A stretch of DNA of 36,063 bases from Planctomycetota bacterium (GTDB lineage: Bacteria > Planctomycetota > Planctomycetia > Pirellulales > Thermoguttaceae), in NCBI GenBank assembly GCA_025353625.1, contig JANXOJ010000474.1:1-36063 (forward strand), written 5' to 3'. This document shows, one piece after another, positions 15,400 through 23,301 of the stretch. Position numbers and translations under genes: made by a program. A model generated the notes under the pieces. The model had not been told where the DNA came from. It did no database searches and worked only from the letters and a program-made list of their open reading frames with translations. Each line of letters opens with the position of its first letter. Positions within the stretch are counted from its first letter, which is position 1.

Positions 15400-18096
15400 A
15401 TGCTTGAAAATCGCGATCTAAAAAAGGACCTTTTGGCCCTCGGGCTCTTTGCGCTCGTCGTCTTTCTTGGGGCGTCGCTGCTCAGTTACGATCCGGCCGA
15501 TCCACCGAGCAAGTTGGTCTATCCCGAGCGCATTGAAGTGCTGAACGTTTGCGGTCGCTCCGGGGCGATTGCCGCTCGATTCCTGCTCAACGCCATTGGC
15601 ATCGGTGCCTACTACTTCGTCGTTTCGCTTGGCATCATGGACGCATTCCTGCTCGCGCGGCGGCCTGTGAACCAGCCGATAACGCGGTTTAGCGGCTGGC
15701 TGATTTCTCTCGCCGGACTAACGACGTTTGCCTCCATAGCCTTGCCGCAACTTTCGCCTGGCCCGGTCATCGGTTCCGGGGGCTACCTCGGTGCGGCGGG
15801 GCGCGGGCTGTTGGAACTGAATTTCGCGACGGTCGGAGCCTATATTTTTGCCATAAGTTTGATCTTCGGCGGTCTGTTGCTTTCCACCGACTACCTGTTG
15901 GTGCAAATGTTGGCGTGGATCGTTGGCAGGCCGGCCCAGGGCTTTGGTCAAGGGATGCTTCACGTTCGTGCCGCGGCAGCCAAGCACTTGAAACGTCGTA
16001 GCGATCTCGACGGTTACGACCCGGCCGACATTTTACAGGCCGAGCGCGGCGGTGCCAAGATCGTCTCCATGCGCGTCAAAGGACGCCCGGTAGAAGAGGC
16101 CAAGCCGCCCGCCGTGGCAATCGAGTTGCCCAAGGAGCTCGTCGTATCGGCTCCGGCTGCCGTACTATCCGCCGAACAACCGGCAACGGTCGAGCCAGCC
16201 TCGACGGGCGGCATCAGTTCGCTGTTGCGCATTCGCAAGCCAAAAATTGCCGCGAAGGACGAGTTGAATCTCGACGAGCCGCCGGCGAACGCTGCCGACT
16301 ACGAATTGCCGAGCATCGAATTGCTGCTTGCCGGCGAGGGCTTCGACTTTGAGGAGCAAGAGAAGGAAGTTCGCCGTCGCGCCAAGGTTTTGGAGCAGAC
16401 ATTCAAGGATTTCGGCTTCAATATCCGCGTCGTCGAGATACAGACCGGCCCGGTTATCGCGCAGTTCGAGGTCGAGCTTGAAGCCGGCTTGCGGCTGAGC
16501 AAGATCACCGTGCTGGCCGACGACTTGGCAATCGCCCTGCGCGTGCCGAGCGTCCGCATCGTCGCGCCCATCCCCGGCAAAAACACCGTCGGCATTGAAG
16601 TGCCGAACACCACGCGGCAGATCGTGCGCCTTCGCGAAGTCATCGAAGAGGCCAACGGACAGGCGCAGAAGATGCGCATCCCCGTCTACCTGGGCAAGGA
16701 CGTTTCCGGCAACGCGATGGTCGTCGATCTCTCGTCGCTGCCGCACCTTTTGATCGCCGGCCGCACCGGCACCGGCAAGAGCGTCTGCTTGAACTCCATC
16801 ATCACCTCGATGATTATGACAAAGCGGCCCGACGAAGTTCGCATGTTGATGATCGACCCCAAAATGGTCGAGCTCAGCCCCTACAAAAACTTGCCCCACC
16901 TCATGCACCCGGTCGTGACCGACATGAAGAAGGCCGAGGCCATCCTCGCCTGGGCCGTCGATAAGATGGAAGAGCGATACCACTTGCTGGCCCGAGCCGG
17001 CGTGCGGCACATTAGCGGCTACAACCAGTTGGGCGAAGACGAACTGATGGACCGCATCAAGCCGGAAAACGACGAAGAGCGGCGGCAGATTCCCACCCAC
17101 ATGCCGTACATCGTCATCGTGGCCGACGAGTTGGCCGACTTGATGATGACCTCCGCCAAAGAAGTCGAAACGCACATCATCCGCTTGGCCCAAAAGAGCC
17201 GGGCGGTCGGTATCCACCTCGTTCTCGCCACCCAAAAACCGACGGTGGACGTTATCACCGGCCTAATTAAGTCGAACCTGCCCGCGAGAATCTGCTTCCA
17301 AGTTGCCAGCCGCACCGATAGCCGCGTGGTACTCGACGAAATGGGTGCCGACAAACTGCTCGGTAACGGCGACATGCTGTTCCTCTGGCCGGGCACGAGT
17401 ACGTTGATTCGCGGCCAGGGCACCTACTTGAGCGACGACGAGATCAATCGCGTGATCGATTCCGTCGCCACCACCGAGCCGCAATTCGTTAAGGAACTGG
17501 TGCAACTCAAGGCGACGCCGACAGAAACCGAAGTCGCCGGCGCGAAGAAGTTCGCCGATCGCGATGAGCTTTACGAAGCGGCCATCGATGTCGTGGTCCG
17601 CGAGGGGCGCGGCAGCGTTTCCCTGCTTCAACGATCCTTGGGAATCGGCTATGGCCGTGCCGCCCGGCTGATCGACTTCATGGCGGAAGACGGCTATGTC
17701 GGTGAATACAACGGCTCGCAAGCCCGCGAAGTGACGATCACCCTCGAGCAATGGGCCGATATGAGTGGTCAAAAGGCCGGCGGCGCATTGGCCGAGGCCG
17801 TGTCCCCTCGGCGGAGCCATACGATCATGCTACCACCTTCCGCGACAGCGCACGCTGCCGGGCACAAGGCCATCACGCTTAATTCAGACGAAGACTACGA
17901 TGAACGAGCAATGGCCGAGGAAGATTTCCACGACGTTCCATCGCGCAACTTCGATGGCAACCACCTAAACTCCGATCCCGACGACTATGTTTCGACCCGA
18001 AATAGCCGTTCGAGCGAAGCTCCGACGGGCGGTGCAACGGGTGACGATCACCCCGACGGGACGAAAGCTGCCTCGGGGCAGCGCGGCTGTGCGTAA
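15400..18096 (+). CDS. ftsK: DNA translocase FtsK/SpoIIIE
   Basis: N-terminal TM segments, AGRTGTGKSVCLNSIITSM Walker A, MLMIDPKMVELSPYKNLPHLMHPVVTDMKKA, HLVLATQKPTVDVITGLIKSNLPARICFQVASRTDSRVVLDEMGADKLLG, C-terminal gamma winged helix (GSVSLLQRSLGIGYGRAARLIDFMAEDGYVGEYNGSQAREV). Confidence 0.97.
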   Translation: MLENRDLKKDLLALGLFALVVFLGASLLSYDPADPPSKLVYPERIEVLNVCGRSGAIAARFLLNAIGIGAYYFVVSLGIMDAFLLARRPVNQPITRFSGWLISLAGLTTFASIALPQLSPGPVIGSGGYLGAAGRGLLELNFATVGAYIFAISLIFGGLLLSTDYLLVQMLAWIVGRPAQGFGQGMLHVRAAAAKHLKRRSDLDGYDPADILQAERGGAKIVSMRVKGRPVEEAKPPAVAIELPKELVVSAPAAVLSAEQPATVEPASTGGISSLLRIRKPKIAAKDELNLDEPPANAADYELPSIELLLAGEGFDFEEQEKEVRRRAKVLEQTFKDFGFNIRVVEIQTGPVIAQFEVELEAGLRLSKITVLADDLAIALRVPSVRIVAPIPGKNTVGIEVPNTTRQIVRLREVIEEANGQAQKMRIPVYLGKDVSGNAMVVDLSSLPHLLIAGRTGTGKSVCLNSIITSMIMTKRPDEVRMLMIDPKMVELSPYKNLPHLMHPVVTDMKKAEAILAWAVDKMEERYHLLARAGVRHISGYNQLGEDELMDRIKPENDEERRQIPTHMPYIVIVADELADLMMTSAKEVETHIIRLAQKSRAVGIHLVLATQKPTVDVITGLIKSNLPARICFQVASRTDSRVVLDEMGADKLLGNGDMLFLWPGTSTLIRGQGTYLSDDEINRVIDSVATTEPQFVKELVQLKATPTETEVAGAKKFADRDELYEAAIDVVVREGRGSVSLLQRSLGIGYGRAARLIDFMAEDGYVGEYNGSQAREVTITLEQWADMSGQKAGGALAEAVSPRRSHTIMLPPSATAHAAGHKAITLNSDEDYDERAMAEEDFHDVPSRNFDGNHLNSDPDDYVSTRNSRSSEAPTGGATGDDHPDGTKAASGQRGCA

Positions 18097-18380
18097 ACTG
18101 GCCGCTTTTGTCCGAGCGGGAATAATATCCTGCGACCGGACCAAAATAATCTTTCAACGTTGCTGGCCAACGTCGAAGCCTGCGGCGCAAGCAAGCAATT
18201 CGGACGCCATCCCATGCACAATCCTCGCTTGCGCAGCGGACTTCGATAGTTCATTTCGGCCCAACCGCACTATATTTCCTCGCCGCTTTCTTCCCATCGC
18301 TACCTTCATCGGGGGGCACGGGCTTGACGCCCTAATTCGTCGCGGGTAAACTCTATGGTCCGCCCAAACAACGAACCTTA

Positions 18381-18506
18381 ATGAAAATTGGACCCATGAC
18401 TGCCGATACCAGCACCCTGAACACCATCATGAGCAGTGCGGTTGTCGCCGCTTTGGCAGGCGAAGTTGGCGTTGCGACGATTTTTATTCAGGAGGTTCGG
18501 GCCTAG
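18381..18506 (+). CDS. Small ORF (41 aa, or 36 aa from ATG 18396); candidate leader peptide
   Basis: MKIGPMTADTSTLNTIMSSAVVAALAGEVGVATIFIQEVRA*; ends 35 nt before a strong terminator hairpin and upstream of cimA. No clear Shine-Dalgarno; below the ORF-track length cut-off. Confidence 0.35.
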   Translation: MKIGPMTADTSTLNTIMSSAVVAALAGEVGVATIFIQEVRA

Positions 18507-18541
18507 GGCTTTCGGTTCAACAAAAAGAACTTGTCGGCCCC

Positions 18542-18571
18542 AAGGCCCATTTTGGCCTTTGGGCCTTTTTT
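18542..18571 (+). terminator. Intrinsic terminator / candidate attenuator upstream of cimA
   Basis: AAGGCCCA (18542-18549) pairs with TGGGCCTT (18560-18567) followed by a T run to 18571; outer complementary arms TTCAACAAAA (18516-18525) / TTTTGTTGAA (18568-18577). Confidence 0.75.
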
Positions 18572-18649
18572 GTTGAATGGGAGTTCAAATCGCAAATTTG
18601 AGACGCCCCTATACGCACCTTCAATCCAACTCCTAACTCCTCTTCCCCC

Positions 18650-20215
18650 ATGCCCCGCATCGAAATCTACGACACGACACTTCGCGACGGCTCCCAGGCC
18701 GAAGGTATCAGCTTCTCCCTTCAGGATAAGCTGGCAATTACCGAGCGACTCGATTGCCTGGGGTTCGACTACGTCGAGGGTGGCTATCCGGCGTCGAACG
18801 AGAAAGATGCCCAATACTTCCAGCGGGTTCGTGAACTGGACCTTAAGCATGTGCGGGTCTGCGCGTTCGGTATGACGCGACGCAAGGGTGTCAAGGCGGA
18901 AGACGACGATGGCCTCAAATCGCTGATCGATTCTCATGCAAAGACAATCACGATCGTCGGCAAGAGTTCGCTCTTCCAGGTGACGGAGGTTCTGCGCACG
19001 AATGCGGAAGAGAACCTGGCGATGATCGGCGAGAGCATTGCCCACCTCGTCGCCCAGGGCCGCGAGGTGATTTTCGATGCGGAACATTTCTTCGATGGCT
19101 GGAAGGCGGATGCAGCGTATTCAATCTCGGCCTTAAAGGCGGCGGCGGAAGCCGGTGCCAAGCGGGTCGTGCTGTGCGATACGAATGGCGGCAGCATGCC
19201 GGAAGATATTGTCCGCGCCGTGCGGAACGCCATCGAATCGCTGACGGTGCCAGTTGGTATCCACTGCCACAACGATTGTGAGTTGGCGGTTGCCAATTCC
19301 CTGGCCGCCGTCGATGCCGGGGCATCGCAAGTCCAGGGCACGATCAACGGTTTTGGCGAGCGATGCGGCAATGTTGATCTGATCTCGGTCGTTGCCAATC
19401 TGGCCCTGAAAAAGTCGGGCTACGATCTGCTCATCCCGGGTGGCGTGGCACACTTAACCGAACTGTCGCGGTTCGTCTACGAAATCCTGAACATGAACTT
19501 TCGCTCGCATCAGCCGTTCGTCGGCAAGAGCGCGTTCGCGCATAAAGGCGGAATGCACGTCAGCGGCATCGCCCGCAATACGTCCGCCTACGAGCATATC
19601 GTGCCGGAATTGGTTGGCAACGAGCGTCGCGTATTGGTGAGCGAGCTATCGGGCCGCTCGAACCTAGTGGCGATGACGCAGCGGCATAAGATTCCCAACG
19701 ACTCGAAGTTGATGGATAGCATCCTGGCCCAGGTCGTTGCCCTCGAAGGGGCCGGATACCAGTTCGAGGCGGCCGACGGCTCCTTCGACTTGCTCGTGCG
19801 AAAATGTATCGGCACGTTCCGCCCACACTTTGAACGGCTCAGCTATCGCGTCAACGTGGAGACGAACGCTCGCGGCGAAATCCGCACGGAGGCGACCGTT
19901 AAGATCCGCATTGGCGACGAGATTTGCCACGAGGTAGCCGAAGGCGACGGCCCGGTGAACGCGATTGATGCGGCCATGCGGAAGGCCCTCAACGGGCATT
20001 TTCCGGCCTTGCAGAAGTTGCACCTGATCGACTACAAGGTTCGCGTCATCAACTCGGAAGCATCGACGGCCGCCGGCGTCCGCGGGGTGATCGAGAGCCA
20101 AGACGAAACCGACGTCTGGGGCACCGTGGGCGTGAGTGAGAACGTCATTGAGGCGAGTTGGATTGCTTTGGTCGATAGTTTTGAGTACAAGTTGATGAAG
20201 GATGAAGAATCATGA
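18650..20215 (+). CDS. cimA: (R)-citramalate synthase (2-isopropylmalate synthase / CimA family)
   Basis: IEIYDTTLRDGSQAEGISFSLQDKLAITERLDCLGFDYVEGGYPASNEKD, VVLCDTNGG, GIHCHNDCELAVANSLAAVDAGASQVQGTINGFGERCGNVDL, GKSAFAHKGGMHVSGI, C-terminal LeuA-type regulatory domain. Confidence 0.92.
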   Translation: MPRIEIYDTTLRDGSQAEGISFSLQDKLAITERLDCLGFDYVEGGYPASNEKDAQYFQRVRELDLKHVRVCAFGMTRRKGVKAEDDDGLKSLIDSHAKTITIVGKSSLFQVTEVLRTNAEENLAMIGESIAHLVAQGREVIFDAEHFFDGWKADAAYSISALKAAAEAGAKRVVLCDTNGGSMPEDIVRAVRNAIESLTVPVGIHCHNDCELAVANSLAAVDAGASQVQGTINGFGERCGNVDLISVVANLALKKSGYDLLIPGGVAHLTELSRFVYEILNMNFRSHQPFVGKSAFAHKGGMHVSGIARNTSAYEHIVPELVGNERRVLVSELSGRSNLVAMTQRHKIPNDSKLMDSILAQVVALEGAGYQFEAADGSFDLLVRKCIGTFRPHFERLSYRVNVETNARGEIRTEATVKIRIGDEICHEVAEGDGPVNAIDAAMRKALNGHFPALQKLHLIDYKVRVINSEASTAAGVRGVIESQDETDVWGTVGVSENVIEASWIALVDSFEYKLMKDEES

Positions 20216-23200
20216 CCATCCCCATGCAAGACCTCCCCAAGCAATACAATCCGGCCGCCGCCCAAGATCGTTGGCACAAATTCTGGGAATCCAAAGGCTA
20301 TTTCCATAGCGAGCCCAACCGAGCCAAGAAGCCTTTTTCGATTGCCATCCCGCCGCCCAATGTGACCGGGGCGTTGCACTTGGGGCACGCGCTGAACAAT
20401 ACGTTGCAAGACATCCTCATTCGCCAAAAGCGGATGCAAGGTTTTGAGGCGCTGTGGATGCCCGGCACCGATCATGCGGGCATTGCCACCCAGGCGGTGG
20501 TCGAGCGTCGCTTGCTGCAAGAGGAAAAGCTAAGCCGCCACCAGTTGGGACGCGAGGGGCTCGTCGCTCGGATATGGCAATGGAAGAACGACTACGAAAA
20601 GCGGATTCTTGGCCAGCTCAAAGAAATGGGCTGTAGCTGCGATTGGCACCGGACCCGCTTCACGCTCGATGCGCAATGCGCGCGAGCGGTGCGACATACG
20701 TTCTTTAAGATGTTTCAAGAAAAGCTCATCTATCGCGGCAAGCGGCTCGTCAATTGGGACGCGATGCTGCAAACGGCGGTAAGCGACGACGAAGTCTTTC
20801 ACGAGACGACGAAGGGCCATTTTTGGTATTTTAATTACCCCACAATCGATCCCAAGCCGGGCGAGCCGGCCTATGTCACCGTGGCGACAACGCGCCCCGA
20901 GACGATGCTCGGCGATACGGCTGTGGCGGTCCATCCCGAGCCGTCTGCCGCACTCGACAAGGCCGAGGCAGACTTACTGCAACGCTTTGAAGCGGCAGCG
21001 TCCAAAGACAAGGCCGATCTACAGAAACAGATTGACGACCTTCGGGAACGCCGCCGTACAATGCTTGCCGATTTGGAAACGCTCGCCGACATGGCCCGCG
21101 ATGGTCGCAAGATTCGGCTGCCGCTCTTAAACCGCGAGATACCGCTAATCGCCGACGTTTGGGCGAAGCCGGAGCTTGGCACCGGCTGCGTAAAGATCAC
21201 GCCCGCCCACGACCCGAACGACTACGAGGTCGGACTGCGTCAACGCCTGCCGATGATCAACATTCTGAATTGTGATGGAACGCTCAACGAAAACGCCGGG
21301 CCGTATCAGGGGCTTGCGAATCCCAAGGCACGGCAAGCCGTTGTGGCCGATTTGGAAAAGCTGGAATTGGTGGCCAAGATCGAAGATCGCGAGATCGAGA
21401 TTGCCCATAGCGACCGCTCGAAGACGCCGATTGAGCCGCTCTTGGCCGATCAATGGTTCGTGAAAATGGACCATTTGGCGCAAACGGCGATGGATGCCGT
21501 GACCGATGGGCGCGTGAAGATTTTCCCCGAGCGATACGCCAAGAGCTATCTCGATTGGCTCAGCGAGAAACGCGACTGGCCGGTCAGCCGCCAGCTTTGG
21601 TGGGGACACCAGATTCCAGTCTGGTATTGCAAAACCGCGTCCGAGGCCGAGTTGCAAAAAGCGTTCGCCGGACGTGCCGATGTTGTCTGGCATCGCGATG
21701 AACAGAATTGCCAATGGCTGATCTGTGCGCAGGAAGAAGACCTCGCCGAAAACGCCGTGCCGGGGCACGCGCTCGTCCGCGAGTTGGACGTCCTCGACAC
21801 CTGGTTCAGTTCCGCCCTCTGGCCGCATTCGACGTTGGGCTGGCCGGAGCAGACGCCGGAATTGGCCTACTACTATCCCACCAGCGTGCTCATTACCAGC
21901 CGCGATATCATCACGCTCTGGGTCGCACGCATGGTGCTGGCCGGACTGTACAACGTTGGCGATATTCCATTCCGCGAAGTCTTCATCCATCCCAAGATTC
22001 TCGACGGATACGGCGAAGGAATGTCGAAGTCCAAGGGCAACGGCGTCGATCCCATCGACGTGATCGAAAAGTTTGGGGCCGATGCCTTGCGCTTCGGGCT
22101 GGCCTATCTTACCACCGAGACGCAGGACGTGCGGATGCCGGTGGAGTTCGAGTGCCCGCATTGTCAGAAGCTGATCGAACAAACCAAGGAAAACCGCGTT
22201 CGCCCGCGCGTTAAATGCAAGCATTGCAGCAAAGAGTTTTCAACGCAATGGGCCGAAAAGGCGGAAGATAAGGCATTGCCGCGCGGAGCGGTGGTGAGCG
22301 AGCGGTTCGAGCTGGCAAGAAACTTCTGCAATAAACTTTGGAATGCCTCGCGTTTGGTTCTGATGAATCTTGAAGGGTACGCTGCGGCCACGGTGGCGGA
22401 CGGCGAGCTATTAGTTGACGACCGCTGGATTCTCAGCCGACTTGCGACCGTGACCCAAGATGTGACAACGCACCTAGCCGGATATCGCTATTCCGAGGCG
22501 GCAAAGGTATTGTACGGCTTCGCCTGGGACGAGTTTTGCAGCTTCTACCTCGAAATGGTGAAGGCTCGCCTGACCGACCCGGCCGCGCGCCCGACGGCGC
22601 AGCGGGTGCTAACGCATACGCTCGACACGCTCCTGCGATTGCTGCATCCGATGATTCCGTTTGTCACCGAGGAAGTATGGCATTTACTCAATGAAGCCGC
22701 GCCACAACGGGGCATCGAACGCGTTGCATCGGCGAGCGAGAGCATTATGATCGCGCCGTGGCCCCAGTCCGCGTCGGCCCGGCAGAATCCGGAGATCGAG
22801 GCGCGATTTGCCCGCTTCCAGGAAGTGTTGCGCGCGATCCGCGATATTCGAAGTCGGCAGAATGTGCTGCCTAAGACGCAGATCAATTTTTCCGTCCGTT
22901 GCGATGCGGCCACGGCCGATTTGCTCAAGCCGATGGAGCCCTACTTCATCAGCATGGCCGGTGCAAGGGCCACGGAAATCGGGCCGCAGACCAATCCCCC
23001 GGAAGTCTCGGCGAATGTCTCACTATCCGGAATGGAGGTCTTCGTCGATCTGGCCGATTTGATCGATGTCGCCGCCGAGATCGAGCGAAAGCAACAGGAG
23101 ATTGTCCGGCTCGATGGCCTGATTGCCGTGAAACGCAAAAAACTGGAGAATCAGAGTTTTATCGACCGCGCCCCGGCGGCCGTGGTCGAAGGCGAACGAG

Positions 23201-23301
23201 CGGCTTTGAAGGAGCTTGAGGACCAGCGGGCGGCGGCCGTGGCAGTTGTCGAGCGGATGAAGAACACCGTGGCACCCGGTTATCCCAAATTACGCTATTG
23301 A
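20212..23301 (+). CDS. valS: Valyl-tRNA synthetase
   Basis: PPNVTGALHLGHALNNTLQDILIRQKRMQG (HIGH region), TTRPETMLGDTAVAVHP editing domain, GMSKSKGNGVDPIDVIEKFGADALRF (KMSKS), C-terminal coiled coil. 4-nt ATGA overlap with cimA. Confidence 0.96.
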   Translation: MTIPMQDLPKQYNPAAAQDRWHKFWESKGYFHSEPNRAKKPFSIAIPPPNVTGALHLGHALNNTLQDILIRQKRMQGFEALWMPGTDHAGIATQAVVERRLLQEEKLSRHQLGREGLVARIWQWKNDYEKRILGQLKEMGCSCDWHRTRFTLDAQCARAVRHTFFKMFQEKLIYRGKRLVNWDAMLQTAVSDDEVFHETTKGHFWYFNYPTIDPKPGEPAYVTVATTRPETMLGDTAVAVHPEPSAALDKAEADLLQRFEAAASKDKADLQKQIDDLRERRRTMLADLETLADMARDGRKIRLPLLNREIPLIADVWAKPELGTGCVKITPAHDPNDYEVGLRQRLPMINILNCDGTLNENAGPYQGLANPKARQAVVADLEKLELVAKIEDREIEIAHSDRSKTPIEPLLADQWFVKMDHLAQTAMDAVTDGRVKIFPERYAKSYLDWLSEKRDWPVSRQLWWGHQIPVWYCKTASEAELQKAFAGRADVVWHRDEQNCQWLICAQEEDLAENAVPGHALVRELDVLDTWFSSALWPHSTLGWPEQTPELAYYYPTSVLITSRDIITLWVARMVLAGLYNVGDIPFREVFIHPKILDGYGEGMSKSKGNGVDPIDVIEKFGADALRFGLAYLTTETQDVRMPVEFECPHCQKLIEQTKENRVRPRVKCKHCSKEFSTQWAEKAEDKALPRGAVVSERFELARNFCNKLWNASRLVLMNLEGYAAATVADGELLVDDRWILSRLATVTQDVTTHLAGYRYSEAAKVLYGFAWDEFCSFYLEMVKARLTDPAARPTAQRVLTHTLDTLLRLLHPMIPFVTEEVWHLLNEAAPQRGIERVASASESIMIAPWPQSASARQNPEIEARFARFQEVLRAIRDIRSRQNVLPKTQINFSVRCDAATADLLKPMEPYFISMAGARATEIGPQTNPPEVSANVSLSGMEVFVDLADLIDVAAEIERKQQEIVRLDGLIAVKRKKLENQSFIDRAPAAVVEGERAALKELEDQRAAAVAVVERMKNTVAPGYPKLRY

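Follow-up and report, generated by a model that had tools for sequence, protein, structure and literature searches.

The leader between ftsK and cimA in a planctomycete genome is very probably a classical ribosome-mediated transcription attenuator, one that senses charged tRNA-Ile and controls cimA and probably also valS. In the sequence and its comparison with relatives we find a short ORF, a conserved position of the control codons, mutually exclusive pairings with compensatory conservation, a promoter-like site and an isoleucine gene downstream. The controlled gene, for citramalate synthase (TIGR00977), thus belongs to the pathway of the amino acid proposed to be sensed. Beyond this gene, it seems likely that ribosome-mediated attenuators of a widespread, codon-swappable family serve Planctomycetota as a main means of controlling amino-acid biosynthesis; one RNA model describes the family, which pairs Ile with cimA, Leu with leuA, and Phe/Tyr/Trp with DAHP synthase.

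Organization of the cimA leader

The window (the whole stretch of 36,063 nt that was analysed) derives from a 4.97 Mb planctomycete assembly, and most relatives of its cimA belong to Pirellulales. A first-pass annotation of the same DNA named the flanking genes correctly: ftsK (15400-18096) is the upstream neighbour of the leader region, followed by citramalate synthase, which TIGR00977 identifies as cimA, and valS. Between ftsK and cimA lie a promoter-like site, a 41-codon ORF and an intrinsic terminator (18536-18571). The features of the region, with the basis for each, are as follows.

18324-18352, + strand: predicted sigma-70-type promoter, TTGACG (18324-18329), 17-bp spacer, TAAACT (18347-18352); window sequence and similar sites in relatives
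18372-18390, + strand: segment 1, 5' part of the leader, whose partner in untranslated RNA is 18478-18499 (control codons and GAGGTTCG); folds, and matched arms exceeding swapped arms in 60 loci
18381-18506, + strand: ORF for the leader peptide (41 aa; 36 aa if started at the ATG at 18396), with a TAG stop at 18504-18506; sequence and homologous ORFs in 60 relatives' loci
18480-18488, + strand: putative control codons ATT-TTT-ATT (Ile-Phe-Ile), aligned with ATTATTATT of relatives; comparison with relatives
18499-18508, + strand: segment 2, antiterminator 5' arm, overlapping the leader stop codon; sequence, alignment, folds and arm swaps
18514-18534, + strand: small hairpin within the antiterminator loop (GGTTC...GAACTT); fold
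18536-18548, + strand: segment 3, antiterminator 3' arm and terminator 5' arm; alignment, folds and arm swaps
18553-18571, + strand: segment 4, terminator 3' arm and U-run (TTTTTT, 18566-18571); alignment and folds
18650-20215, + strand: cimA, citramalate synthase (isoleucine pathway), proposed controlled gene; TIGR00977, 646 bits against a cut-off of 450 (equivalog model)
20212-23301, + strand: valS, probably co-transcribed with cimA, whose stop it overlaps by 4 nt; profile match and gene order

The ORF has the length and the end first ascribed to it, and the antiterminator is exactly as claimed, with GGGCCTAGGG (18499-18508) and CCCAAGGCCC (18539-18548) forming six base pairs, an A-A mismatch and three base pairs. 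An intrinsic terminator had also been described and does exist, but not in the register given for it (AAGGCCCA/TGGGCCTT); pairing of GGCCC-C-AAGGCC (18536-18547) with GGCCTT-T-GGGCC (18554-18565), followed by six T, is lower in energy and is conserved. Moreover, the architecture is fuller than that annotation had it, since a 1:2-like helix (18372-18390 with 18478-18499) is present as well. The overlap of the antiterminator arm with the stop codon is a placement that lets a ribosome at the stop cover the arm, and the distance from stop to terminator has a median of 31 nt across relatives. No ribosome-binding site is visible before the leader ORF in the window, as had been remarked. The leader ORFs of the window (18489-18497) and of relatives share a Shine-Dalgarno-like GGAGG, placed after the Ile codons and before the stop, which may slow the ribosome over the antiterminator arm.

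We infer leader translation, ribosome stalling, a response to isoleucine and co-transcription of valS, in the following scheme. RNA polymerase would start at ~18359, the start expected from the predicted promoter, and a ribosome would translate the leader peptide. When Ile-tRNA is sufficient, the ribosome at the stop codon would cover segment 2, so that segment 3 pairs with segment 4 and transcription ends at 18566-18571. When Ile-tRNA is short, the ribosome would stall at the ATT at 18480 or 18486 and leave segment 2 free; segments 2 and 3 would then pair, no terminator would form, and cimA, probably together with valS, would be transcribed. With no translation at all, segment 1 would hold the control region and the terminator would form.

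The fold of the whole window leader is more stable than those of 200 dinucleotide shuffles (z -3.0), and the bare RNA adopts the 1:2-like helix plus the terminator. Constrained folding with a ribosome at the stop (blocked up to 18518) yields the terminator (-21.9 kcal/mol), while a stall with the A site on the ATT at 18480 (bases through 18494 blocked) yields the antiterminator (-32.7) without the terminator. For a stall at the second Ile codon (18486), the antiterminator forms while the polymerase is at 18552 and the finished RNA favours the terminator; antitermination there would thus depend on folding order, and the first Ile codon should matter more.

Conservation, control codons and pairings in relatives

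We fetched the cimA loci of 80 relatives and read their upstream regions by gene position. They display a common design, in which a short ORF, with runs of ATT toward its 3' end, has its stop inside CGGCC-UUA-GGGC and is followed by a spacer of ~31 nt and GCCCUGAGGCC...GGCC..AGGGC-UUUUUU. A first covariance model, built from 47 leaders, detects the element before cimA at 60 of the 80 loci (E<=2e-4), 14 of them not in the model-building set. When genomes sampled from the order were searched, 115 of 147 gave a match at E<=0.01. Of 29 of the best loci, the window's excluded, 27 have cimA adjoining the match, the other two being short pieces without cimA. The window scores 70.2 bits with this model, in the upper third of the relatives' scores, and a second model, built from 35 leaders with the window left out, recovers the window leader at 62.7 bits (E=8e-15). 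Together with the covarying helices described below, these homologous leaders strongly support the attenuator first proposed from the window. DNA and peptide similarity searches with the leader gave no convincing homolog outside its own genome because the leader sequence diverges fast, and its homologs are seen only via gene position. The two next-best model matches in the window's own genome (C642:4824 and C723:11) were rejected, being a lone terminator-like hairpin and a structure that no amino-acid gene follows.

Conservation of the ORF and helices, which the first-pass annotation had named as a check, is stronger than expected across relatives but fails in the only same-genus genome available (CimA 87% identical), where ftsK, an unrelated 341-aa ORF and cimA follow one another without the leader. 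This absence indicates that the element can be lost, and the weak codon cluster of the window may be a step toward such a loss. The 341-aa ORF that replaces the leader (L136 205-1230, - strand) is a secreted-looking orphan with no relative in 39 other genomes searched. Downstream of cimA, valS is found in 64 of the 80 fetched loci; given this gene order, attenuation in response to Ile may also govern the level of valyl-tRNA synthetase. Promoter-like sites of the form TTGAC-N16/17-TA..T stand before most relatives' leaders in the same place as the window site, with at least 9 of 12 consensus matches in 61% of leaders versus 8% of shuffles, which speaks against a transcription start downstream of 18577.

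Clustering of Ile codons was tested by choosing, for each leader, the frame with most Ile and applying the identical choice to dinucleotide shuffles. At least three Ile in the last 12 codons occur in 72% of leaders versus 0.5% of shuffles. The window has just two, a level that 7% of shuffles reach; they lie at -8 and -6 before the stop codon and, taken alone, form a weak cluster. The first-pass caution that branched-chain codons are not densely consecutive therefore holds for the window, with its Ile-Phe-Ile, but not for its relatives, which carry dense Ile runs (ATT ATT ATT) at the same position. Over the last 14 leader residues, as compared with cimA, Ile amounts to 25.8% versus 4.9%, Val to 14.9% versus 9.7% and Leu to 1.2% versus 8.6%, and Ile peaks 6-9 codons before the stop. 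The Ile clusters in the leader ends support the branched-chain sensing that had been suggested, and these proportions narrow it to isoleucine as the most likely sensed amino acid, Leu being depleted. Ile codons are ATT in 71% of cases in the leaders versus 24% in cimA of the same loci (odds ratio 7.7, p 5e-55).

Both the antiterminator (alignment columns 49-60 with 105-116) and the terminator (105-115 with 127-137) covary across the 47 leaders. They exceed all 500 shuffles by three measures, namely paired cells, cells with change on both sides, and the covariation score, and by each of these they beat every slid register. The count of antiterminator pairs with both-side change is not exceptional, being reached by 129 of 500 shuffles, partly because leaders with TAGGG and those with TTAGGG or TAAGGG need registers differing by one. 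To avoid this, we also used a register-free test in which the duplex energy of arms from one leader, averaged over leaders, was compared with that of arms swapped between leaders; it gave z -7.0 for the antiterminator and -8.9 for the terminator. Letter-shuffling one arm abolished the effect (z +0.7, +0.4, -1.5). The 1:2-like helix between the leader 5' part and the control-codon segment reached z -7.9 versus -1.3 when shuffled and +0.9 for a cimA control segment. Because sequence relatedness is retained throughout, none of these z values is a probability. Three mutually exclusive pairings hence keep their complementarity across relatives, and they are the classical 1:2, 2:3, 3:4 set.

Secondary matches of the cimA-leader model lie before leuA, where Leu runs (e.g. 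MFIAPLLPLLLLLLPKGGN) are present in all 13 leuA leaders read. These Leu-rich leaders with the same terminator architecture (L175-L184, L186, L189, L191) include one from the window's same-genus relative (L175). Another model match precedes DAHP synthase (L190), and leader ORFs rich in Phe/Tyr/Trp (e.g. MRSIQTTYYWFYFPPHGRGVGGGL) were found in 16 of 25 DAHP synthase loci with a start found. Elsewhere in the phylum, among other families and classes, the model has few matches, and these again include leuA, DAHP synthase and cimA. leuA is absent from the assembly of the window's own genome (a single match of the query), and no leader or T-run lies in the 330 nt before the DAHP synthase gene of that genome, so the wider family rests on other genomes. 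Leaders with Phe/Tyr/Trp clusters (e.g. YYWFYF) before DAHP synthase were seen at L190, L194, L196, L200, L202, L205-L207, L212, L214-L220 and L223, and the leader ORFs of this gene often end in a conserved GRG-GGG-like tail.

Alternative readings of the leader

From a single genome, a 36-41 aa ORF with a terminator behind it would look the same if it were an ordinary small gene between ftsK and cimA, with cimA served by a separate promoter, and this alternative had been raised at the outset. Comparison makes it very improbable, for the N-terminal half of the ORF is not conserved, yet the Ile cluster, the stop position and the three exclusive pairings are, and the next gene is nearly always cimA. 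T-boxes control isoleucine genes in other bacteria, and a T-box or a riboswitch would be a leader that binds tRNA or a metabolite and is not translated. Such a reading is hardly credible here: no Rfam family matches the window leader, T-box and amino-acid leader families included (none above cut-off, none at E 5), and codon identity follows the downstream gene. Ribosome-mediated attenuation predicts such tracking of the downstream pathway by codon identity, which neither a riboswitch nor a plain small gene predicts.

Within ribosome-mediated attenuation, the leader could sense valine besides isoleucine, that is, several branched-chain amino acids, in keeping with valS in the operon. We regard this as unlikely. 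Val-Val and Val-Gly-Val do occur in the window peptide, valS follows cimA and Val is somewhat enriched at the leader ends, but the enrichment of Ile is far larger and falls on the positions nearest the antiterminator arm, whereas Val peaks further upstream and Leu is depleted. It is also improbable that the window holds an ancestral attenuator whose response is being lost in its genus. Ile-Phe-Ile in place of Ile runs, the A-A mismatch in the antiterminator and the missing leader of the same-genus genome would suit such decay; however, every part of the window leader is intact, including the 1:2-like helix and the U-run, the pairings are still mutually exclusive, and the model score exceeds that of most relatives.

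Relation to known attenuators and variation before cimA

The proposed isoleucine-sensing attenuator shares with the enterobacterial attenuators (trp, his, leu, ilvGMEDA) the design of a short translated leader with cognate codons, an antiterminator arm at the stop, exclusive 1:2, 2:3 and 3:4 pairings and an intrinsic terminator. It differs from them in that Rfam models detect no similarity, in its gene, cimA, with which the pyruvate route to isoleucine begins, and in its planctomycete host. The ilvB-II, ilvB-OMG and ilvB (Leptospira) motifs likewise combine a leader ORF rich in branched-chain codons with a terminator and antiterminator, but they precede ilvB in Corynebacterium, Leptospira or scattered phyla and have mixed branched-chain and Thr codons, whereas the planctomycete cimA leaders have mainly Ile (PMC10272879). 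In Actinobacteria, leuA and ilvB are likewise preceded by leader peptides with cognate amino-acid runs (the LEU element and the ilvB leaders); the LEU element, however, forms a pseudoknot in whose base stem the Leu codons are paired with the Shine-Dalgarno box of leuA, while the planctomycete elements have an intrinsic terminator (PMC1262725). According to Naville and Gautheret (2010, PMC2965389), leader-peptide attenuators were known from Proteobacteria and Actinobacteria alone, and their study contributed one from Firmicutes; for Planctomycetes, another study does no more than count short ORFs close to genes (PMC4833913). The literature searched yielded no planctomycete amino-acid attenuator and no cimA attenuator, though the survey of Lopatovskaya and others (2010, Mol Biol 44:128) could include planctomycete cases. 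What looks unreported is not the kind of attenuation, which is classical, but the gene (cimA), the phylum and the range of amino acids covered (Ile, Leu, aromatic).

Planctomycetes have long been discussed for their unusual cell plan. Because attenuation works only with a ribosome close behind RNA polymerase, conservation of the leader provides indirect evidence for transcription-translation coupling in these cells, and would extend tightly coupled control of the two processes to planctomycetes. The attenuator also suggests how the citramalate route to isoleucine may be regulated, and the approximately 60 leaders, in which ATT is strongly preferred over ATC, are ready-made for testing codon sensitivity.

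Between the leader and cimA, four genomes (L068, L093, L095, L107) carry a similar ORF of 106-141 aa (KVWQLGMELSERVY...), which looks like a putative four-helix-bundle/S23-type protein, and L104 has a 648-aa ORF. Among these, L068 is Aeoliella straminimaris, a culturable relative. Directly before cimA, a palindrome-like CAAATTTGAGA with repeated CTAACTC units is found in both genus members (18587-18640 in the window, ~2930-3000 in L031), and the palindromic word has a single occurrence in the window's own genome.
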